Shown here piece by piece: positions 5 to 32,307 of a stretch of 32,307 nt of DNA. The first letter of the stretch is position 1. Each line of letters starts with the position of its first letter. The DNA lies in assembly GCA_028279065.1 (NCBI GenBank), contig JANQSY010000029.1, positions 1-32,307 of the forward strand, read 5' to 3'. Made by a program: the position numbers and the translations under genes. This stretch comes from Cytophagales bacterium (GTDB lineage Bacteria; Bacteroidota; Bacteroidia; Cytophagales; CCMP332). The notes beneath the pieces are model-generated. The model ran no database searches, was not told the DNA's origin, and was given only the letters and a program-made list of their open reading frames with translations.

Positions 5-3000
5 TTATTCTTTCTTTCCAGATTTCTCAGCGATCTTATGAAGCTTTCGTTCATTTTGGGCTCCAATGCTGGTTTTTATTCCTGTATATAATGATTTCCA
101 CCAGTAGTTGATGATTGATTTATTCGGGTTACGCTTGAAGAAAATGCTCCCTTCCCTAAAAAAACCCAGATGGGGATTTCTGGTATTGACCACAAAAGTG
201 TTCGCCAAAAAGGAAATAAAGCCTTTGTCCAGCCCTTCCACCTGCCCTGTATTCTTGTTGATCAATGCGATCTTAAAGTCAGAATACTTGAATTCCATGT
301 TACCGGTGGAATAATGGTCATCCGCCTTGGCATCAAACTCTATGGATTTGATATAACCGCTCTTGATGGTTGTAAAGGCTACATTTTCAACCATTGGATT
401 GATCTTCCGCATATCCATAGGTCCAACTGAACCCCACATTTCAAATTTGTTCCCCGGATCGCGGATATTAAGATTGCAATGAAAGTCAATTACTCCTTCC
501 CCCATCAATTTTGCTGTCCCCGACATTTTTAACAGAGGATCTTGCCTGAAGATCTCCGGGTCTGAGGTCACATTCACGGCAGTTGCTGAAAAATCCTTAA
601 AATCCACAATTCCAGGAACCTTCCCGCCTTCGACAAATTCTTCATATTGGATCTCCCCATTGCTGACGGATACGGTATCAAGGTGGAACCTGAAATCGAT
701 TTGCTTAAGGATCTCTTGGGGCATGGGGGGAAAGAAATTCTCTCGGTCAGGCATGCGCTTGTCCCTGTGGTCATTGACCAGCATGCCATCGACCACCAAT
801 TTCTGGCCTCGTAGGTACTGATCATGATAAAGGCGTATCAGATCGAAATCCTTTAGGAAGATCTTGTCCAGCTTGATCTCAATCCGGTCTGTCTCAAAGC
901 CGAGTTTCCTGGAATGAAGGTACTTTCCATACCATGGTTTTATATGAAAATCATATACAAATGCTTCCTTTCGACCTGTGGATACTCCAACCTCTTTGGC
1001 TGTCAGGTCCATCATGGCCTCAGGTAGTTTCCTGGAGAAATTTCTCACCACCAGGGTAATATCATCCGCGAAACCAATTCGATCATCATTCCACCTTTCG
1101 CCATTTCGGATCTTCACTCCCCTGATCTTTCCATATATCTTACCCTGATCAAGGACCAGATCCAAGGAATCGCCCAGGACATTATACCTGAAGAAATGAA
1201 AATTGGTCAGATCAATGGTCTCAATTTCCAGACTGTTGATCCCTTTTGGAAAGTTGATCTGAATATTTGAAAGGTCCAGCTTGGTCTTCTTCCTTAATTG
1301 AGGAAAGATGAACTCGATAAGACCCACATCACTGACCCTGACTCTTTCGATCTCAATATCGCCGGATTGATAGAAATCATCCACGTCAAAACCCGTGATC
1401 TCAAGTTTCTTAACCGAGCCTGAACGGTAAGCACTTTTCTGTGTTCTTGAAAGTGTCCTGAATGGGTTTGATCCAGGCATGGCTACAAGCTTTCCGTCCA
1501 AAAGGGTGATCCTGGATCCCTGCTGATCAACCTTAAATTTTTCCCATTCAAATCGATGTAGTCCATCCCCCAAAAGCACAAAGCCATCAGTAAAATTCAA
1601 CCCGATCTGACGGGTAAGGAACATGGATGGAGAGGCCCCCGTGGAATATTCATTGATCACCAAATTCCGAACAGGGCCCTCAAAATTAGTTTGGAACAGC
1701 TTATTGCCATACTCATTATGAATAGATACGGTGCCCTTTTTTGTCTTTATTCTGTTGATCACCAATCCATTCAGCCCTTTTCCCTTTTGACCTCCCTGAC
1801 CTGTTTTTTGGCCGAAAAATGTCTTGGCCTGATGGTATTGAAAATTTGGATTCTCAGTGATTATCTCATCGATGATCAGGACCTTTTCCTCAAATAGCCG
1901 TTTAAGATCAATTCCTGTGGCCAACAATTTTGGGAATGTGGCGTTCAGTTTTACCTTAAAAGGGAAGATATTCCCTTTGAACTTCTTAGGTGTAACCTTG
2001 ATCCCGATTCCTTCAAGCTTCTTGTCCTTGCTGGAAAGGGTGATCTTCTCAGCAAAAAGATTATGGGCAGGACCTCCAAAATCAAGATCATAATCCTTGA
2101 GGATCACCTGAAGATCCTCTGAAAAGAAAAACCGATCCGGATCTATCTTCTTAACTTTTTCATCCACCTCAAAACCAAGCAGCCTCAGATCTACAGGAGC
2201 CCTGGTCCAGAACTGGTTTTCTCTATGAGGTTCCTGGGATACACGCACCAAAGCATTTTCAGCATAGTATTCTCCCACTGAGATCTTCCTGATCAGCTTG
2301 GTGATAAGTTTTTGAAAATCTTCTTCAAGGATAGGTTTTAGCTCTTTTTTGGAGCTTCGATTCGGATACAAGGTAAAGCCAAATTCAGGGTTCAGGAGGT
2401 GTATCCTTTTGGCGATAAGGGCATCCTGATAAACCAACTTGTAAATATCCAGGCCTTCCCATTTCAACCCAGGAATATAGATATCAAACAGGGTAGTCAG
2501 ACCTTGCTTCTTGAGCTCTGCGACTACATTGCTGGTGTCCCTGGGTGCAAAAATGATGTCCTGGAAATCCACCTTCTTCCTTCTGGTGGAGAGACTCATC
2601 TTCTTGATCTTGACCTCATGCAGTTTATCCAAAAGGAAATCATAATCATGGATCTCCAATTCAAGATGGCGGGAGAAGAAGATCCTGTTTTTTCTTCTTG
2701 AAGCGAGGGAATCAAGTTCAAAGCCGAAAAGATCAAGATTGATCTGGTCCCCACGGATTGACTCCATTCTTCCCTTCTGTAAAAACCAGAAATCCACTAT
2801 TCCGTTTTCCAGCTTGATATTGTTGACGGATACTGTGTCAAAATACCGTGAAACCACCTCAACAATATCAGGCCCCTTCTCATTCCCCACCCTCGACCTT
2901 GATTTTCTAGGCTTACCGATATTCGCCTTTATGACAGGGGATCTAAGGTCAAAAAGTTTTGCTCCCAAAATTCTTTTATGGTAGGCTTTGATAAGGTCAA

Positions 3001-4411
3001 TCCCATCGATCAGGATGTTGGGGATACTGAGGTCAACATAATTCATCCTTCGATTTACCTCGGTTTTTGGTCTCAGGATCAGACCTTGAGCTCTAATGGC
3101 CTGGAGTTTTGAGGAAATAAATAAGGAGTCGGCAGCAATTTCATGGAGGCTGTCCCTGAGGTCCATTCGAAATGTCTCAAAATCAAGCCAGAACTCCTTG
3201 GCATACAGCAGGTTGTCGTCGTCCAAATAGGCCGATGAATCCAAATAGAATCCCTCAAGTGCTACATTTATCCCTTCTATCTCAATGTTTTCCGGATGCA
3301 GTTCAAATGGCTCATAAAAATCAAAGGTTCCGTTTCCGATGAGGACAGAATCGATCTTAACCTCATTGAAATAACCCTCTATCAGTGGATAGATATTTTG
3401 GGCAAATCCTGTGAACTCCTTTTTCTCTACTTTCTTTTTTTCATCTCTGATATTGAATATTTGGAAATTGGGCATCTGCAAATGGATCATCCTGATATTC
3501 AGTGAGTCGGTCTGATATGCAGATTGGATGTCAGCTCCCTTTATTCGTAGCTCAGGAAAGAAAAAGTGATAATAGGGATTGGTAAGTAGGAAAAGGCTGT
3601 CAGGATGCTGCTGACCTGGACTTAGGTTGAACCCCCTGGCAACCACTGATGAGTCTTGACTTGAGAATGAGATCTCATTGGCCTCAATGGTGTGGACACC
3701 ATCCGTCAGGTAGAGTTTATAATCTTTCAAACCGATCTCATAGGATTCGGAATAAAGGAACTTCTTAGATCCTATTCCCTGGGTATTATCGACTTTAAAT
3801 CCCTTCAGATCCAAGGAAAGCTTAGAGGCGGTAAAGCTTTCAATCCGATCTTCCTTGTCCTCAAAAAGGTCAAATTCACCCTCATCGATCCTTATCCTGT
3901 CGATCAAAAGGAACTCCATCAGATTACGAATAATCGGGCCTACATCATCGTATTCCTTTGCCTCCTGGTTTTGAACTGAATCGATATGGGCTAGAATCTG
4001 GACCTTGGGTTTAAAAAAATGTAATTCATCCAACTCCAATCCGGGCGAAAGCAACAGATCGAGAACATTTAGGCCTTTTAACTCGGCCTTGGGAACTATG
4101 ACCCTGTAAAGGGAGGTCTTAACTTCACCTCTCTTCTTTTTTTCGAGATACAGATCGAGGTTGGGCTCCAATTCAAATCCTGTAAGCCTGAAGCCCATCT
4201 CCAGACCAAGCATTTCAAATTTTTCAAAGCTGATGGAGTAAATCCCTTCCGATCTTTCCTCAACGGTTTTCCCGAGATTTTTCTTTAGATAGACACCGAG
4301 CAGAATATAGCTAGCCCATAGAAGCCCCACCAGAATCACGATCCCGGACACCCACTTTAATATCCTTCTTGTCAAGGACTTTGGTTTGCCTTTTTTCTTT
4401 TCCTCTTCCAT
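5..4411 (-). CDS. Giant AsmA-like membrane-anchored repeat protein
   Basis: This 1468-residue protein has a short basic cytoplasmic N-terminus, one membrane segment at about residues 17-41 and then an almost wholly beta-predicted periplasmic body. Internal comparison shows a repeat of about 180 residues. One motif (hydrophobic strand, K/R-D-Y/F, then L-H or similar, ending S-x-S-S/T) recurs near residues 224, 407, 583, 767, 936 and 1118. A second motif, G-I/F-D-L-x-x-L/A-Y/F, recurs near 113, 293, 469, 653, 833, 1006 and 1187. The C-terminal ~180 residues (about 1290-1468) resemble the AsmA/DUF748-type C-terminal domain. Proteins of the AsmA/TamB/YhdP group form long hydrophobic grooves for envelope lipid traffic, so such a role is inferred here, not shown. 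It starts 24 bp after rarA on the same strand and may be co-transcribed with it. The ATG at 4411 precedes a good membrane anchor. Confidence 0.8.
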   Translation of the reverse strand: MEEEKKKGKPKSLTRRILKWVSGIVILVGLLWASYILLGVYLKKNLGKTVEERSEGIYSISFEKFEMLGLEMGFRLTGFELEPNLDLYLEKKKRGEVKTSLYRVIVPKAELKGLNVLDLLLSPGLELDELHFFKPKVQILAHIDSVQNQEAKEYDDVGPIIRNLMEFLLIDRIRIDEGEFDLFEDKEDRIESFTASKLSLDLKGFKVDNTQGIGSKKFLYSESYEIGLKDYKLYLTDGVHTIEANEISFSSQDSSVVARGFNLSPGQQHPDSLFLLTNPYYHFFFPELRIKGADIQSAYQTDSLNIRMIHLQMPNFQIFNIRDEKKKVEKKEFTGFAQNIYPLIEGYFNEVKIDSVLIGNGTFDFYEPFELHPENIEIEGINVALEGFYLDSSAYLDDDNLLYAKEFWLDFETFRMDLRDSLHEIAADSLFISSKLQAIRAQGLILRPKTEVNRRMNYVDLSIPNILIDGIDLIKAYHKRILGAKLFDLRSPVIKANIGKPRKSRSRVGNEKGPDIVEVVSRYFDTVSVNNIKLENGIVDFWFLQKGRMESIRGDQINLDLFGFELDSLASRRKNRIFFSRHLELEIHDYDFLLDKLHEVKIKKMSLSTRRKKVDFQDIIFAPRDTSNVVAELKKQGLTTLFDIYIPGLKWEGLDIYKLVYQDALIAKRIHLLNPEFGFTLYPNRSSKKELKPILEEDFQKLITKLIRKISVGEYYAENALVRVSQEPHRENQFWTRAPVDLRLLGFEVDEKVKKIDPDRFFFSEDLQVILKDYDLDFGGPAHNLFAEKITLSSKDKKLEGIGIKVTPKKFKGNIFPFKVKLNATFPKLLATGIDLKRLFEEKVLIIDEIITENPNFQYHQAKTFFGQKTGQGGQKGKGLNGLVINRIKTKKGTVSIHNEYGNKLFQTNFEGPVRNLVINEYSTGASPSMFLTRQIGLNFTDGFVLLGDGLHRFEWEKFKVDQQGSRITLLDGKLVAMPGSNPFRTLSRTQKSAYRSGSVKKLEITGFDVDDFYQSGDIEIERVRVSDVGLIEFIFPQLRKKTKLDLSNIQINFPKGINSLEIETIDLTNFHFFRYNVLGDSLDLVLDQGKIYGKIRGVKIRNGERWNDDRIGFADDITLVVRNFSRKLPEAMMDLTAKEVGVSTGRKEAFVYDFHIKPWYGKYLHSRKLGFETDRIEIKLDKIFLKDFDLIRLYHDQYLRGQKLVVDGMLVNDHRDKRMPDRENFFPPMPQEILKQIDFRFHLDTVSVSNGEIQYEEFVEGGKVPGIVDFKDFSATAVNVTSDPEIFRQDPLLKMSGTAKLMGEGVIDFHCNLNIRDPGNKFEMWGSVGPMDMRKINPMVENVAFTTIKSGYIKSIEFDAKADDHYSTGNMEFKYSDFKIALINKNTGQVEGLDKGFISFLANTFVVNTRNPHLGFFREGSIFFKRNPNKSIINYWWKSLYTGIKTSIGAQNERKLHKIAEKSGKKE

Positions 4412-4435: not shown

Positions 4436-5710
4436 TTATTTGGACTTTGGAGAGTTCTTCATTTTTCCCCAACGAAGCATTTGTTTTTTATCTATCTCTT
4501 TTTCTCTGGAATTATCACCAGGTTCATAAAATTTCTCTCCTTCCAATTCATCCGGCAGGTATTGCTGAACAACGAAGTTTCCTGTAAAGGAATGGCTGTA
4601 TTTGTATTCTTTTCCATATCCGATCTTCTTCATCAACCTGGTTGGGGCATTTCTTAAGTGGACCGGTACAGGAAGGTTTCCCGTCTCTTTTGCTGTCTTT
4701 ATTGCTTGTTCAATAGCCATATAGCAGCTGTTACTCTTTTCAGACACAGCAAGGTAGATCGCACATTCAGAAAGGATGATCCGGGCTTCGGGCATACCTA
4801 CCTTGTCAATGGCTTCAAAGGTTGAGTTTGCAAGGACAAGTGCTGTGGGATTAGCTAGGCCAATATCCTCTGCCGCAAGGATCACCATTCTCCTGGCAAT
4901 AAATTTGGGATCCTCTCCCCCCTCGATCATTCTAGCCATATAATAAATCGCGGCATCGGGATCCGAACCTCTCATGGATTTGATAAATGCGGAGGCAATA
5001 TCATAGTGCTGGTCCCCTTTTTTGTCGAAATACATTCTCCGCTCCAGACTTACTCTCTCCAGCAGCTCCTTATCAATGAGGACTTTCTTTTCCGGAGAAT
5101 AATCGCTTGCCAGTTCTATCAGATTCAAGAGTTTCCTTGCATCCCCACCTGAAAAGGAAACAAGGACTTTCCAATCTTTTACCTTGATGTTTCTCTTTTT
5201 AAGATCCGGGTCCGTTTTCATCGCCCTGGTCCCGATTGCCTTTAGGGCTTCCAAGTCCAGTTCCTTTAGGATATAAACCTGGCAACGAGAAAGAAGGGCA
5301 GAATTCACTTCAAATGATGGGTTTTCGGTTGTGGCCCCAATGAGGACTATGGTTCCGTCCTCAACAGCACCCAACAAAGCATCCTGTTGCGATTTGTTGA
5401 ATCGATGAATCTCATCAATAAATAGGACAACACCTGTGGAATGTCTGGCATTGGAGATCACCTCTCTCAACTCCTTTACTCCTGAAGAGATCGCACTGAG
5501 GCTTTTAAAAGGCTTTTTGATCTTATGGGAAATGATCCTGGCAAGAGTGGTCTTACCCACACCCGGAGGACCCCAAAAGATCATGGAAGGGATGACCCCA
5601 CTTTCAATGCTCGTCCTCAATACCGCCTTATCACCAAGAAGATGGGATTGCCCTTCAAATCCTTCCAGATCGGTGGGCCTCATTCTATCTGCCAATGGTT
5701 TGTTCTGCAT
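4436..5710 (-). CDS. rarA: Replication-associated recombination protein A (AAA+ ATPase)
   Basis: RarA/MgsA is a clamp-loader-like AAA+ ATPase that acts at stalled replication forks. The 424-residue length is normal for the family. Walker A GPPGVGKT lies at residues 47-54, Walker B LFIDE at 96-100 followed by the family-typical [13 protein letters not shown], and a sensor-1/arginine-finger region [19 protein letters not shown] near 125-143. The C-terminal half contains the diagnostic stretch around [14 protein letters not shown] and [10 protein letters not shown], the tetramerisation/MgsA domain. The ATG at 5710 is preceded by an AT-rich 78-bp gap to the divergent EamA gene. The AsmA-like gene follows 24 bp downstream. 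Confidence 0.95.
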
Positions 5711-10202: not shown

Positions 10203-11270
10203 ATGGCTAATAAATTCAGTGCAGGGGTAGTCTGGGGACAAGAGACTGCCGATCTCCTTCAGTATGCAAACGAGAATGACTTCGCCCTTCCGGCGGTGAA
10301 TGTAGTTGGTACTAATTCCGTCAACGCAGTCCTTGAAACAGCCCGTAAGGTGAATTCTCCAGTTATGATACAGTTCTCTAATGGCGGCGCACAATTCTTT
10401 GCTGGAAAAGGACTTGATAATTCAGACCAGAACGCCTCAATTCTTGGGGGTGTTTCGGGAGCTCAGCATATCCAATTGATGGCTCAGGCATATGGGGTCA
10501 CTGTTGTCCTTCACACAGATCATGCTGCAAAAAAGCTGCTTCCATGGATTGATGGATTGCTGAACTACGGAGAGCAGTATTTTGAGGCACACAAAAGACC
10601 TCTGTATTCTTCTCATATGCTTGACCTTTCTGAAGAGCCATTAGAAGAAAATGTTTCCATAAGCAGAAGTTACCTTGAGAGAATGGATAAAATGGGGATG
10701 ATCCTTGAAATTGAATTGGGTGTAACCGGGGGGGAAGAAGATGGAGTTGACAACACAGATATTGACAGTTCAAGGCTCTATACTCAACCGGAAGAGGTTT
10801 GTTACGCTTACGAACAACTGAAAGAGGTGAGCGAAAACTTCACTGTGGCAGCTGCCTTTGGAAACGTACATGGGGTTTATAAACCGGGAAACGTGGAGTT
10901 AAAACCCATAATCCTTAAAAACTCTCAGGATTATATAGTCCAAAAGCACAATACAGGCCGAAATCCATTGAATTTCGTGTTCCACGGTGGATCCGGATCT
11001 TCCCAGGAAGATATTCGGGAGGCTATAGGTTATGGGGTGATCAAAATGAATATTGACACAGATATGCAATGGGCCTATTGGGAAGGAGTAAAGAATTACG
11101 CTGATGAAAAGAGTGGTTACCTGCAATCCCAGATCGGAAATCCAGAAGGGGATGATAAGCCTAACAAAAAGTTCTACGATCCAAGGGTTTGGCTGAGAAA
11201 AGGCGAAGAGAACTTTGTTGAAAGATTGACTCAGGCCTTTGAAGACCTAAATTGTATCAACCAAAACTAA
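10203..11270 (+). CDS. fbaA: Class II fructose-bisphosphate aldolase
   Basis: A zinc-dependent aldolase that interconverts fructose-1,6-bisphosphate with DHAP and glyceraldehyde-3-phosphate. The 355 residues match the E. coli FbaA type (class IIA). Seen in sequence: LHTDHAAK with the catalytic Asp106 and zinc ligand His107; LGVTGGEEDGVDN (residues 172-184), preceded by the active-site Glu171; zinc ligands His223 in FGNVHGVYKPGN and His261 in FVFHGGSGS; and the phosphate-binding KMNIDTD at 281-287. All key residues are present, so it should be active in glycolysis and gluconeogenesis. A WYL-domain regulator follows 9 bp downstream. Confidence 0.97.
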   Translation: MANKFSAGVVWGQETADLLQYANENDFALPAVNVVGTNSVNAVLETARKVNSPVMIQFSNGGAQFFAGKGLDNSDQNASILGGVSGAQHIQLMAQAYGVTVVLHTDHAAKKLLPWIDGLLNYGEQYFEAHKRPLYSSHMLDLSEEPLEENVSISRSYLERMDKMGMILEIELGVTGGEEDGVDNTDIDSSRLYTQPEEVCYAYEQLKEVSENFTVAAAFGNVHGVYKPGNVELKPIILKNSQDYIVQKHNTGRNPLNFVFHGGSGSSQEDIREAIGYGVIKMNIDTDMQWAYWEGVKNYADEKSGYLQSQIGNPEGDDKPNKKFYDPRVWLRKGEENFVERLTQAFEDLNCINQN

Positions 11271-28355: not shown

Positions 28356-29063
28356 CTACTGCTTATTCAACTTATACAACTGTGCGGGTTTGTGGAGAAC
28401 ACCCTCTTGCTTTTCACCAACAGCTTCAATCAGACCTTCCTTCTTGACCTTCTTTCGGAAATTCCTCTTATCGAACTTCTTATTCAACACGATCTCGTAA
28501 AGTTTTTGAAGCTGGGTGAGTGTAAATTTCTTTGGAAGAAGCTCGAAGCCCAACATCTTGTTCTCAAATTCTTCCTGAAGCCTTTTAAACCCTCCCATTA
28601 CGATCTCATTATGATCGAAGGCTAACTGAGGGATATTTTCCACATTTTGCCAAAAGGTTTTTGCTGCAAATGAGGCAGGCACAGGTTTGTAATCGTTCAG
28701 GCTAACAAGGGAATAATATCCAACCGTGATCACCCTTGCTGCTGGCTCAGTTCTGAAAGATCTCAACCAGTCCTGATCCTTGAGGTCCTTGACCCGGTTA
28801 ACATTTCCAAATGCATGGAATTGCTTCATATATATGTTATCCAGATTGGTCAATTCGGCCAATACTCGTAATGCAGCATCATCGAGACTTTCATCATCAA
28901 AAACAAGGTCCCCAGGCAGTGCGAATTGGGTCATATGATTCCCGCCATTAAAGTCTTTCTGCTCGATCAAAAGGACCCTTAATTCCTCGCCGTTAAATCC
29001 AAAAACAACGCAATCGACGGATATATTATGGTTTAATACGTGCCCGTTAGGTGGTTTGGCCAT
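28356..29063 (-). CDS. NUDIX-type (NrtR/AraR-like) transcriptional regulator
   Basis: A 235-residue protein with an N-terminal NUDIX fold (about 10-150) and a C-terminal winged helix (about 160-235; FTLTQLQKLYEIVLNKKFDKRNFRKKV-type helices and LYKL end). The NUDIX box is degenerate: where a hydrolase has R-E-x-x-E-E it reads R-V-L-A-E-L-T, so catalytic metal ligands are missing, as in NrtR-family repressors that use the fold to sense ligands. The frame is open to 29468, but the upstream part overlaps pfkA on the other strand and lacks family similarity; MAKPPNGHVLNHNISVDCVV at 29063 fits. Members control NAD metabolism or, in Bacteroidota, sugar catabolism. The divergent glycolytic operon is its probable target. 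Confidence 0.88.
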   Translation of the reverse strand: MAKPPNGHVLNHNISVDCVVFGFNGEELRVLLIEQKDFNGGNHMTQFALPGDLVFDDESLDDAALRVLAELTNLDNIYMKQFHAFGNVNRVKDLKDQDWLRSFRTEPAARVITVGYYSLVSLNDYKPVPASFAAKTFWQNVENIPQLAFDHNEIVMGGFKRLQEEFENKMLGFELLPKKFTLTQLQKLYEIVLNKKFDKRNFRKKVKKEGLIEAVGEKQEGVLHKPAQLYKLNKQ

Positions 29064-29205: not shown

Positions 29206-30195
29206 ATGTCAAAGAAGGACTCCATAAAAAAAATAGGTGTTTTTACCTCCGGGGGTGACGCTCCCGGCATGAATGCCTCTATTCGAGCGGTTGTAAGGGG
29301 GGCGTTACACCATGGATTAAAGGTAGTGGGGATCGAGAGAGGATATGAGGGTCTGATCGAAGGGCGTATGGCTCCCTTGACAAATAGATCGGTGGGGAAC
29401 ATCCTGCAAAAGGGCGGTACCTTCTTAAAAACAGCCAGAAGTGAACTTTTTAAGACCCCTGCGGGCATGGAGCAGGCTTATCACAAGCTTTTGGAATATG
29501 AGATCCATGCCCTGATCGGAATTGGTGGAAACGGAAGTCTAAAAGGTCTTCAGGTGTTGAATGAAAGGTATGGAATACCCGTAATCGGTATTCCTGCTAC
29601 AATTGATAACGATCTTGGTGGAACAGACTTCACCATCGGTTTTGACAGTGCCGTGAATACAGTTGTTGAGGGGGTTGATAAGATCAGAGATACAGCGCTT
29701 TCCCATAACCGACTATTCCTAATAGAGGTTATGGGCAGGGATGCTGGTCAGATCGCCGTGTCAAGTGGAATAGCTTCCGGAGCCATTTCGACGATCATTC
29801 CGGAGAAGGAAAAGTCAATTGATGATCTGTTCAAGGAGATCCGGTTGCTGCAGGGCAGCAAAAAAGAAAGCAAGATCATAATCGTAGCCGAAGGTGGTGG
29901 TCTTGGAAGCGCTCCATCCATTGCTGAAAAAATCGAAGATGAATTCCCTCATTATGAAGTAAAAGTGACCATTCTAGGGCACCTGCAAAGGGGGGGTGCT
30001 CCGACCGCTTTTGATCGCATCCTTGCAAGCAAGTTCGGCGTTGCCGCTGTTGAAGGGCTTATCAATGGCCATCAAAACCATATGGTTGGGTTGGTAAACA
30101 ACAGATTGGAATTCACACAATTAACGGAGGTTTTTCATCAAAAGAATGACTTGGACGGAGATCTTTTAAGGATCTCAGAGTTTTTATCAAACTAA
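29206..30195 (+). CDS. pfkA: 6-phosphofructokinase
   Basis: Phosphorylates fructose-6-phosphate to fructose-1,6-bisphosphate. The 329-residue form starts at the ATG at 29206; the open frame reaches further up but crosses the operators. Motifs: TSGGDAPGMNASIR (14-27), PATIDNDLGGTDFTIGF with catalytic Asp134 in TIDND, VMGRDAG, and LGHLQRGGAPTAFDRILASKFG. The notable change is G-G-N-G-S at 107-111 in place of G-G-D-G-S, so the Asp that helps coordinate Mg-ATP in E. coli PfkA is Asn109. The Gly after it, which marks ATP rather than pyrophosphate use, is kept. First gene of a packed five-gene operon. Confidence 0.93.
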   Translation: MSKKDSIKKIGVFTSGGDAPGMNASIRAVVRGALHHGLKVVGIERGYEGLIEGRMAPLTNRSVGNILQKGGTFLKTARSELFKTPAGMEQAYHKLLEYEIHALIGIGGNGSLKGLQVLNERYGIPVIGIPATIDNDLGGTDFTIGFDSAVNTVVEGVDKIRDTALSHNRLFLIEVMGRDAGQIAVSSGIASGAISTIIPEKEKSIDDLFKEIRLLQGSKKESKIIIVAEGGGLGSAPSIAEKIEDEFPHYEVKVTILGHLQRGGAPTAFDRILASKFGVAAVEGLINGHQNHMVGLVNNRLEFTQLTEVFHQKNDLDGDLLRISEFLSN

Positions 30196-30205
30196 ATTTA
30201 TCAAA

Positions 30206-31066
30206 GTGATAATAATCGCAGATAGCGGATCTACAAAATGTGACTGGGCTTTGGTCCAGCCGGATGGTGAAATAATAAGCATTTTCAGCACCATGGGTTT
30301 TAACCCATTTTTCCACACTAAAGAGGTAATCTCGGCGGAATTGTTTAAGAACCGGGGCCATTTTCCTCCCCTTAAGAAGATTGAGAAGGTCTTTTTTTAT
30401 GGTGCGGGCTGCTCCTCTCCCGAGATGAACAGGGTGATCTCAGATGGGTTGAGTCTTTTCTTCACTTCCAGTGATATTCATGTAGATCACGACCTCGTAG
30501 GAGCTGCCTATGCAACGTTTTCAGGCGAGCCAGGAATTGCCTGTATCCTGGGAACAGGATCCAATAGCTGTTTCTTTGACGGGGAAAATATCAGAGAAGA
30601 AGTGCCTGCCTTGGCATTTATTCTAGGAGATGAAGGAAGTGGGAGTTATTTTGGAAAAAGATTGCTCAGGTCTTACATGTACAGAAAACTTCCTGAAGAG
30701 CTTAGAAATGAATTGGACAAGGAATACACCCTGAATAAAGATGAGATCTTTGCAAACGTTTATGGCAACAACAAGGCCAATGTCTACCTGGCAAGTTTCA
30801 TGAAATTTGTTTCTGACAATCAAAAACACCCATTCTTTAGGAAGATCCTTAAAGATGGCCTCAATGATTTCCTTGATGTGCACGTCAAATGCTTTAAGGA
30901 ATACAAAGAGGTCCCGATACATTTTGTTGGTTCCGTGGCTTATTACTGCCGTGGTATTCTGGAGGAAGCGATGAATGAAAATTCAATGCGCCTTGGAGCC
31001 ATAGAAAAAAAACCGATCCAGGGTCTGATCCAGTATCATCTTGATTATGTTTTAGAGGCACATTAA
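30206..31066 (+). CDS. BadF/N-acetylglucosamine-kinase-type ATPase
   Basis: A 286-residue member of the ASKHA (actin/hexokinase fold) BadF/BadG/GlcNAc kinase family. Phosphate-1 motif ADSGSTKCDWAL at residues 5-16, FYGAGCSS near 67, phosphate-2/adenosine region G-I-A-C-I-L-G-T-G-S-N-S near 113-124, then the family's L-G-D-E-G-S-G-S-Y-F-G-K near 140. It probably phosphorylates an amino sugar or hexose; GlcNAc is the best guess from Bacteroidota homologues. The start is GTG (30206), 10 bp after pfkA, with no ATG available before the phosphate-1 motif. Second gene of the operon. Confidence 0.88.
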   Translation: MIIIADSGSTKCDWALVQPDGEIISIFSTMGFNPFFHTKEVISAELFKNRGHFPPLKKIEKVFFYGAGCSSPEMNRVISDGLSLFFTSSDIHVDHDLVGAAYATFSGEPGIACILGTGSNSCFFDGENIREEVPALAFILGDEGSGSYFGKRLLRSYMYRKLPEELRNELDKEYTLNKDEIFANVYGNNKANVYLASFMKFVSDNQKHPFFRKILKDGLNDFLDVHVKCFKEYKEVPIHFVGSVAYYCRGILEEAMNENSMRLGAIEKKPIQGLIQYHLDYVLEAH

Positions 31067-31076
31067 TTTCAGTAGC

Positions 31077-31475
31077 ATGAGAAACATTGCTGTTATCGCC
31101 CACGATAAGAAGAAGCCTGCGCTGGTTGATCTATTAAAAGAAGTGGAAGATGGTTTATGGCAACGGACCATCCTTGCTACCGGTCGAACCGCAGAGTTCC
31201 TCGAAAAAGGGGATTTTAAAGTTCCGGTAAACCATATGAGTCCAGGAAAATCCGGTGGGTATATGGAGATCACGGATATGATCAGGGAAGGAAAAGTGGA
31301 TATCGTGATTTTTTTAAGGGACCATGAGGTCACCCATAATCATGAAGACATTCAAAATCTTCTGATCGAATGCAATAAAGGGAATGTACCCCTTGCCACT
31401 AATCCAGCTTCGGCCAAGCTGTTGCTCATGGGTCTTATCCATTTGGAAAGGATTCATCCAAAAAAGAAATCCTGA
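31077..31475 (+). CDS. Methylglyoxal synthase-fold protein, catalytic Asp absent
   Basis: A 132-residue MGS-like domain protein. Conserved with MgsA: I-A-V-I-A-H-D-K-K-K (His9, Asp10), A-T-G-R-T-A in the phosphate-binding loop (35-39 region), I-R-E-G-K-V-D-I-V-I-F-L, a His/Asp-rich D-H-E-V-T-H-N-H-E-D (82-91) and V-P-L-A-T-N-P-A-S-A. However the E. coli G-P-M-G-G-D-Q-Q segment, which holds the catalytic Asp71, is replaced here by S-P-G-K-S-G-G-Y-M-E-I-T (55-66); Tyr62 or Met63 aligns to the Asp. It may be a regulatory or altered-specificity relative, or use another acid (Glu64, Asp67). Databases would probably name it mgsA. Starts 10 bp after the kinase gene. Confidence 0.85.
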   Translation: MRNIAVIAHDKKKPALVDLLKEVEDGLWQRTILATGRTAEFLEKGDFKVPVNHMSPGKSGGYMEITDMIREGKVDIVIFLRDHEVTHNHEDIQNLLIECNKGNVPLATNPASAKLLLMGLIHLERIHPKKKS

Positions 31476-31476
31476 A

Positions 31477-32133
31477 TTGAATTCCCTAGGGTTCATTTTT
31501 GATCTGGATGGGGTCATCGTAGATACGGCCAGCTTTCATTTCAAGGCATGGGGTCAGATCGCATCCGAATTGGGAATTGAATTTGGGGAAAAGGAAAATG
31601 AGCTTCTAAAAGGTGTGGGCAGGGCAGATTCTCTCGAAAAGATCCTTTCTATGGGAAATGTCAAATTGGAAGCCGACAAAAGAGAGGTTCTTTTGCATAA
31701 AAAGAACAGAATATATCTGGAACTCGTTGATTCCCTCTCTGAGGATTCACCCTTGCCCGGGGCAAAGAATTTTTTAGAAGAATCAAAAAGATCAGGAATC
31801 AAAATAGGAATAGGTTCATCAAGCAAGAACGCAAAAAGAATTCTGGAAAAGATCGGGTTAGCTGATGAGTTTGATGTGATTGTAGATGGAACCATGATCG
31901 AAAAGTCCAAACCAGATCCGGAAGTTTTTCAAAAAGGGGCAGAAAAAATGGGGACACCACCTTCCTCATGTGTGGTATTTGAAGATGCCGAGTCAGGAGT
32001 CAAGGCAGCGAAAAGGGCAGGTATGTATTGTATCGGGATCGGATCTGAAAAAAACCTCTCAGATGCAGATCTTGTGGTTACGGACTTGAGCAAGATCAAA
32101 GCCCATGAAATAAAATCCCTTCTGAACCTATGA
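31477..32133 (+). CDS. pgmB: Beta-phosphoglucomutase
   Basis: Converts beta-D-glucose-1-phosphate to glucose-6-phosphate; HAD superfamily. From a TTG start at 31477 the protein is 218 residues, usual for the family. Motif I D-L-D-G-V has nucleophile Asp9 and acid Asp11; the cap follows with S-F-H-F-K-A-W (His21) and the family hallmark G-V-G-R-A-D-S-L-E-K-I-L (46-57). Motif II is G-S-S-S-K-N, motif III K-S-K-P-D-P, motif IV F-E-D-A-E-S-G-V-K-A-A. The open frame extends to 31384 inside the previous gene, but those residues are not family-like. One base separates it from the preceding stop codon, and its stop overlaps the next ATG. Confidence 0.92.
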   Translation: MNSLGFIFDLDGVIVDTASFHFKAWGQIASELGIEFGEKENELLKGVGRADSLEKILSMGNVKLEADKREVLLHKKNRIYLELVDSLSEDSPLPGAKNFLEESKRSGIKIGIGSSSKNAKRILEKIGLADEFDVIVDGTMIEKSKPDPEVFQKGAEKMGTPPSSCVVFEDAESGVKAAKRAGMYCIGIGSEKNLSDADLVVTDLSKIKAHEIKSLLNL

Positions 32134-32307
32134 GTGCTCAATACATCCCTGATGAATGGAAGGTAGTCGAAAAGGGATTCGATCCATCTCTGATACAGGG
32201 ATCAGAAAGCCTTTTTAGCCTTGGGAATTCCCATATGGGACACCGGGGGAATTTCGAGGAAACCTATTCAGGAAAAAGCCTTCAAGGTTCCTATGTTGCC
32301 GGGGTTT
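32130..32307 (+). CDS. GH65 disaccharide phosphorylase (5' end only)
   Basis: The first 59 codons of a gene that runs off the window. The peptide begins M-S-A-Q-Y-I-P-D-E-W-K-V-V-E-K-G-F-D-P and continues with E-S-L-F-S-L-G-N-S-H-M-G-H-R-G-N-F-E-E-T-Y-S-G and G-S-Y-V-A-G-V, the standard N-terminal region of family 65 maltose, trehalose or kojibiose phosphorylases. Such enzymes release beta-glucose-1-phosphate, the substrate of the pgmB product encoded directly upstream with a 4-bp ATGA overlap. The exact disaccharide cannot be told from this fragment. Confidence 0.9.
   Translation, partial: MSAQYIPDEWKVVEKGFDPSLIQGSESLFSLGNSHMGHRGNFEETYSGKSLQGSYVAGV

Follow-up and report, generated by a model that had tools for sequence, protein, structure and literature searches.

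A methylglyoxal synthase-like protein lacking the catalytic aspartate in a maltose/glycolysis operon of Bacteroidota

The locus and its annotation

The window, which is the whole stretch of 32,307 nucleotides analysed here from a Cytophagales bacterium, contains a gene for a small protein of the methylglyoxal synthase (MGS) fold, which we call MGS-Y. The gene belongs to an operon in which pfkA, a BadF-type kinase, MGS-Y, beta-phosphoglucomutase and a GH65 gene follow one another, either overlapping or separated by roughly 10 bases, and a Nudix regulator is transcribed divergently (Table 1). The GH65 gene overlaps the mutase by 4 bases (ATGA), and a full-length version of it is present in relatives. 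The BadF-type kinase scores 30.1 bits with the Pfam BcrAD_BadFG model, just below the cut-off of 31.5, and 32.3 bits with the NCBIfam NagK model, far under the cut-off of 370, and is thus weakly related to NagK. Outside the operon, the window also carries a class II fructose-bisphosphate aldolase gene (10203-11267, + strand).

Table 1. Operon genes and the altered catalytic segment, with their positions in the window
Feature	Position	Strand	Basis
Divergent NrtR/AraR-type Nudix-wHTH transcriptional regulator (start inferred)	28356..29063	-	Pfam NrtR_WHD 92 bits, AraR_C 38 bits
pfkA, ATP-dependent 6-phosphofructokinase (ATG start inferred)	29206..30195	+	TIGR02482 383 bits, above cut-off
BadF/NagK-like sugar kinase (ASKHA), GTG start	30206..31066	+	Family resemblance; ends 10 bases before MGS-Y
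MGS-Y, 132-aa MGS-fold protein, Tyr62 at the E. coli Asp71 position	31077..31475	+	Intact ORF, Pfam, AlphaFold2
Altered catalytic segment, codons G60-G61-Y62 (ggt ggg tat); GGD in canonical MGS	31254..31262	+	
Beta-phosphoglucomutase, probable TTG start right at the MGS-Y stop	31477..32133	+	TIGR01990 231 bits, above cut-off
GH65 (maltose phosphorylase type) gene start, cut by the window end	32130..32307	+	phmmer to the GH65 protein of a relative (L036); GH65 name by eye

The original prediction, made from the DNA letters alone, described MGS-Y as an MGS homologue with intact fold motifs that may be wrongly annotated as mgsA. The open reading frame and its coordinates are exact, and all of the motifs that it quoted (AHDKKK, ATGRTA, IREGKVDIVIF and PLATNPAS) are present. 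The protein scores 38.5 bits with the Pfam MGS-like domain PF02142 (cut-off 24.1), and every one of its PDB sequence matches at E < 1e-9 is a methylglyoxal synthase. The two NCBIfam equivalog models disagree, however. With TIGR00160, the window protein reaches only 75.7 bits against a cut-off of 146.9, and the clade members searched reach at most 98.7 bits in the genome search and 99.4 bits by protein, a shortfall of about 47 to 71 bits, whereas all canonical matches in the same genome search score at least 147.1 bits. With PRK05234 (methylglyoxal synthase), the window protein passes at 89.7 bits (cut-off 84), as do nine further clade members, that is, every member tested. MGS-Y will therefore usually be named mgsA, as had been suggested, and PRK05234 is the likely source of the misnaming. 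A separate collision of names affects a RarA-type AAA+ ATPase in the same window (4439-5710, - strand), which carries a Pfam domain also called MgsA (PF12002). In the open-access literature that we searched, no account of such an MGS-like protein turned up.

An aromatic residue in place of the catalytic aspartate

In canonical enzymes, Asp71 acts as the base, Lys23, Thr45 to Gly49 and Ser65 bind the phosphate, the Gly66-Pro67 loop lies over C1/C2 and His98 is accessory (PMC7843640). We aligned 69 canonical MGSs with the 23 members of the clade to which MGS-Y belongs, and positions are given in E. coli numbering unless they are those of the window protein. The catalytic segment of the window protein reads SPGKSGGYMEIT. 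The original prediction held that the GGDQQ segment had been lost, which is true of its second part, as D-Q-Q has become Y-M-E and Asp71 aligns with Tyr62, but not of its first, as the two glycines are retained. The loss of the catalytic Asp itself extends to the whole clade: all 69 canonical enzymes have Asp in this column, whereas all 23 clade members have Tyr (17) or Phe (6). A search for an Asp that a small shift of the alignment could bring into the site was negative, as none is conserved among the 23 members up to three columns on either side of position 71.

The His/Asp motif that follows had been described as out of register, which proved correct only for the Asp: His89 of the window protein aligns with E. 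coli His98, and its Asp91 falls one residue before Asp101. Among the clade members, position 98, which is His in 69/69 canonical enzymes, is occupied by Tyr (16), His (6) or Phe (1), and position 101 by Asp (14) or Glu (9). Pro67 is likewise invariant in the 69 canonical sequences and is replaced by Arg or Lys in 20 of the 23 members, which places an additional charge beside the ligand loop, and a new His, at position 53 in the numbering of the window protein, is found in the loop of 21 of them. Arg107 (69/69 canonical) and Thr47 are gone in most or all members. The residues kept in the clade are His19, Lys23, Thr45, Gly46, Thr48 or Ser, Gly66, Gly69, Gly70 and Asp91, and the equivalents of His19, Lys23, Asp91 and Asp/Glu101 are conserved in every member. 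In the phosphate site of the window protein, Lys23, Thr45, Gly46, Thr48 and Gly66 are kept and Thr47, Gly49, Ser65 and Pro67 are changed; given another placement of the loop insertion, its Ser55 could replace Ser65.

The canonical reaction, whose product methylglyoxal is toxic, requires a base that removes the C3 proton of DHAP. Neither Tyr nor Phe is able to take this proton, so, going by the established mechanism, the formation of methylglyoxal in the known way is very unlikely, and the Phe found in six members excludes a simple acid-base use of that residue. Thus, MGS activity has very probably been lost in MGS-Y.

A conserved and distinct clade

Relatives were drawn from searches of about 940 genomes, nearly all of them from Bacteroidota related to the genome of the window, together with the record of Bacteroidetes bacterium GWF2_38_335. 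A scan of genome contigs with the single sequence recovered only one true relative. In profile searches at the phylum and order levels, clade members scored at least 234 bits and everything else at most 114, and members that were found later and are absent from the profile scored 172 to 231 bits. The sampled clade comprises 23 members in Bacteroidota, including the window protein, and each is an intact open reading frame. In maximum-likelihood trees, they form a single group with support of 100/100 (99 with the active-site columns removed), in agreement with the earlier suggestion of a distinct clade. Its stem branch is long, with 1.3 to 1.4 changes per site. For close pairs with measurable dS, omega (dN/dS) is 0.02 to 0.08, and it is 0.21 for one distant pair (L097/L099), the other distant pairs being saturated in dS; these low values indicate strong purifying selection on MGS-Y. 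Members also occur in two single-contig genomes (G001 and G819). The possibility that MGS-Y represents a decaying, non-functional remnant of mgsA or a sequencing artefact, which the loss of the catalytic residue taken alone might suggest, can be dismissed given the low omega, the 23 intact reading frames, the operon position common to three families and the single-contig genomes.

The AlphaFold2 model of MGS-Y (pLDDT 86) keeps the MGS fold and resembles the Thermus enzyme 1wo8 most closely (TM 0.84), followed at lower similarity by the MGS domains of CPS1 and CarB, although it may lean towards the canonical fold because it rests mostly on canonical MGS sequences from phage contigs. Such canonical genes were observed on 62 putative viral contigs from IMG/VR (L114-L175), with GGDAQ or GGDAE in all of the distinct sequences that we read; both contigs checked (L121 and L128) have phage-type genes nearby, namely, tRNA nucleotidyltransferase, homing endonuclease and antiterminator genes, and phage-borne mgsA seems to be little described.

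Two regions that vary in canonical enzymes are conserved in the MGS-Y clade. One is the C-terminal helix, and the other is a motif at residues 21-30, K-E-R-E-x-W-x-W-G-R (consensus KEREDWLWGR), whose lower variability is partly due to the narrower taxonomic sampling of the clade and from which the window protein departs at two positions, lacking R23 and W26. From the topology of the fold, the motif probably lies on the alpha1-to-beta2 side, opposite the face where the active site is expected, and it may thus serve as a surface for a partner.

An operon in which MGS-Y is optional

The conservation of the surrounding sugar-phosphate operon, which had been supposed from the window alone, is borne out by the relatives. 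Relatives from three families share this module, in many cases with gapA following pfkA; BadF stands immediately 5' of MGS-Y in 21 of the 23 cases, the mutase follows in 20, and the regulator is divergent from the operon in five other loci as well (L036, L037, L038, L180 and L181). In one relative (L183, from G748), an aldehyde-dehydrogenase-like gene upstream of BadF (2595-3998) replaces gapA and, judged by eye, may encode a non-phosphorylating GapN. In a genome of the same genus as that of the window (L216, from G002), only BadF remains of the operon, and pfkA, MGS-Y, the mutase, GH65 and the regulator are absent from the stretch; the same flanking genes lie nearby (MltG-like, thioesterase-like and YihY-like, named by eye), and since the assembly is fragmented, this is partly uncertain.

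The association is not strict. In six genomes, the mutase comes right after BadF (L217, L218, L219, L220, L221 and L225), and since the operon thus exists without MGS-Y, the latter is an accessory component. Conversely, two members lie outside the operon and without BadF (L002 and L098), which weakens the case for an obligate partnership with the kinase; the genome that carries the second of these (G765) has an operon without MGS-Y at a separate place (L225). Canonical mgsA is found elsewhere in 12 of the 21 genomes with MGS-Y and is absent in nine, including the genome of the window, where, at 97% completeness, the absence is likely rather than certain. MGS-Y as a simple replacement of canonical mgsA is ruled out by the 12 genomes that carry both, and this coexistence, together with the operons without MGS-Y, fits an accessory role.

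Comparison with known systems

MGS-Y is about 36% identical to the known MgsA enzymes (E. coli 1b93/1ik4, Thermus 1wo8/2xw6, B. subtilis 6f2c; TIGR00160), with which it shares the fold, His19, Lys23, Thr45-Gly46-x-Thr48, Gly66, Gly69-Gly70 and Asp91, but it differs from them in having Tyr/Phe for Asp71 and Arg/Lys for Pro67 and in the changes at Thr47, Ser65, Arg107 and, in most members, His98. A parallel in position comes from pfkA-gap-BadF-mgsA clusters of other Bacteroidota, probably Flavobacteriaceae (for example, L016, L018, L176 and L177), where the gene that immediately follows the BadF-type kinase is a canonical mgsA. Those genes keep GGDAQ, however, belong to a clade separate from MGS-Y and lie in clusters without the Nudix regulator, the mutase and GH65. 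Direct descent of MGS-Y from this canonical mgsA was neither supported nor rejected (p-AU 0.215), the long stem having no firm placement in the tree.

Another parallel is the C-terminal MGS domain of CarB and of human CPS1 (2yvq), which has the same fold, a shared Lys and T-x-x-T-A, and no Asp71. Its identity to MGS-Y is only about 18%, it has another loop, and MGS-Y is a stand-alone reading frame that is not fused to the large subunit of carbamoyl-phosphate synthase. Lys954, Thr974 and Thr977 (T-x-x-T-A) of E. coli CarB align with Lys13, Thr35 and Thr38-Ala39 of MGS-Y; we take these CarB residues to be the ones that hold the effector phosphate, and the domain to be an allosteric effector site. 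We dropped the idea that the His53/Lys58 loop of MGS-Y corresponds to CarB Lys993, as the loop of CarB has fewer residues and can be aligned in more than one way. As a separate observation, most of ten CarB matches in the order of the window (L236-L245) end at about 921-947 of a 1058-position model, so the C-terminal MGS domain is apparently missing. Finally, it is the neighbouring regulator, and not MGS-Y, that resembles the NrtR/AraR Nudix-family sugar regulators of Bacteroidetes, having an NrtR wHTH and a Nudix-like domain; among these, BtAraR offers an earlier example of a sugar sensor derived from an enzyme fold (PMC4666351).

Possible roles of MGS-Y

Given that the catalytic residue is lost and yet the protein is strongly conserved within a maltose/glycolysis cluster, MGS-Y most likely does a different job than methylglyoxal synthesis, for instance, the sensing of a sugar phosphate, which the retained phosphate-binding residues and the operon context make plausible. 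The original prediction had already raised both another reaction and a sensor of DHAP or a sugar phosphate as possibilities. It seems fairly probable that a kinase-centred maltose/glycolysis operon of Bacteroidota has recruited a stand-alone protein of the MGS fold, in a development parallel to that of the CarB MGS domain, and that this protein senses a metabolite, serves as a regulatory subunit or catalyses a new reaction, while databases name it methylglyoxal synthase. Our preferred reading, to which we give a probability of roughly 0.45, is that MGS-Y is a repurposed MGS paralogue that does not form methylglyoxal but binds a phosphometabolite and, as their partner, regulates the enzymes encoded beside it. 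In this reading, the fold of MGS and the central residues of its phosphate site would be retained, the MGS mechanism being unusable with an aromatic residue in place of the Asp71 base. The putative ligand would be a phosphorylated intermediate of the route from maltose to glycolysis, such as DHAP, fructose bisphosphate or a hexose phosphate, and the protein would act on co-encoded enzymes, most likely the preceding BadF-type kinase. We prefer a regulatory partner because of the surface motif opposite the active site, the fixed slot behind BadF and the CarB-like effector pattern.

The main and close rival, which we consider somewhat less likely, is that MGS-Y catalyses some other reaction of a phosphorylated compound, for instance as an isomerase, epimerase or lyase; it would use the same pocket, with His9, Asp82 and Asp/Glu91 of its own numbering instead of Asp71. 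In fact, the conserved polar groups H19, D91 and D/E101 could serve another reaction, and their presence in all members together with Lys23, the charge and the His gained in the loop, the long stem and the metabolic nature of the operon all speak for it, but the route from maltose to glycolysis has no obvious missing step, and several genomes have the operon without MGS-Y. It is unlikely that MGS-Y is still a methylglyoxal synthase, slow or rewired and with another residue as the base. The retained fold, His9, Lys13, T35-G36-x-T38 and Asp82, the pass with PRK05234 and the canonical mgsA found in the same slot elsewhere, with its unrejected common ancestry, are compatible with such an enzyme, but it would have to work with Tyr or Phe at position 71 in all members and no conserved Asp nearby, with Pro67, Arg107 and mostly His98 lost, in genomes of which over half also keep canonical mgsA; the clade also fails TIGR00160.

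Implications

The idea of a regulatory partner can be tested directly, given the fixed position of MGS-Y behind the BadF kinase. Genomes whose sole mgsA match is MGS-Y, such as that of the window, would be assigned a methylglyoxal pathway in annotation and in metabolic models. Furthermore, the family offers a natural comparison between proteins of one fold, encoded in the same slot of the operon, that have or lack the catalytic Asp. This comparison bears on the ways in which a small enzyme of metabolism turns into a sensor or takes on another reaction.
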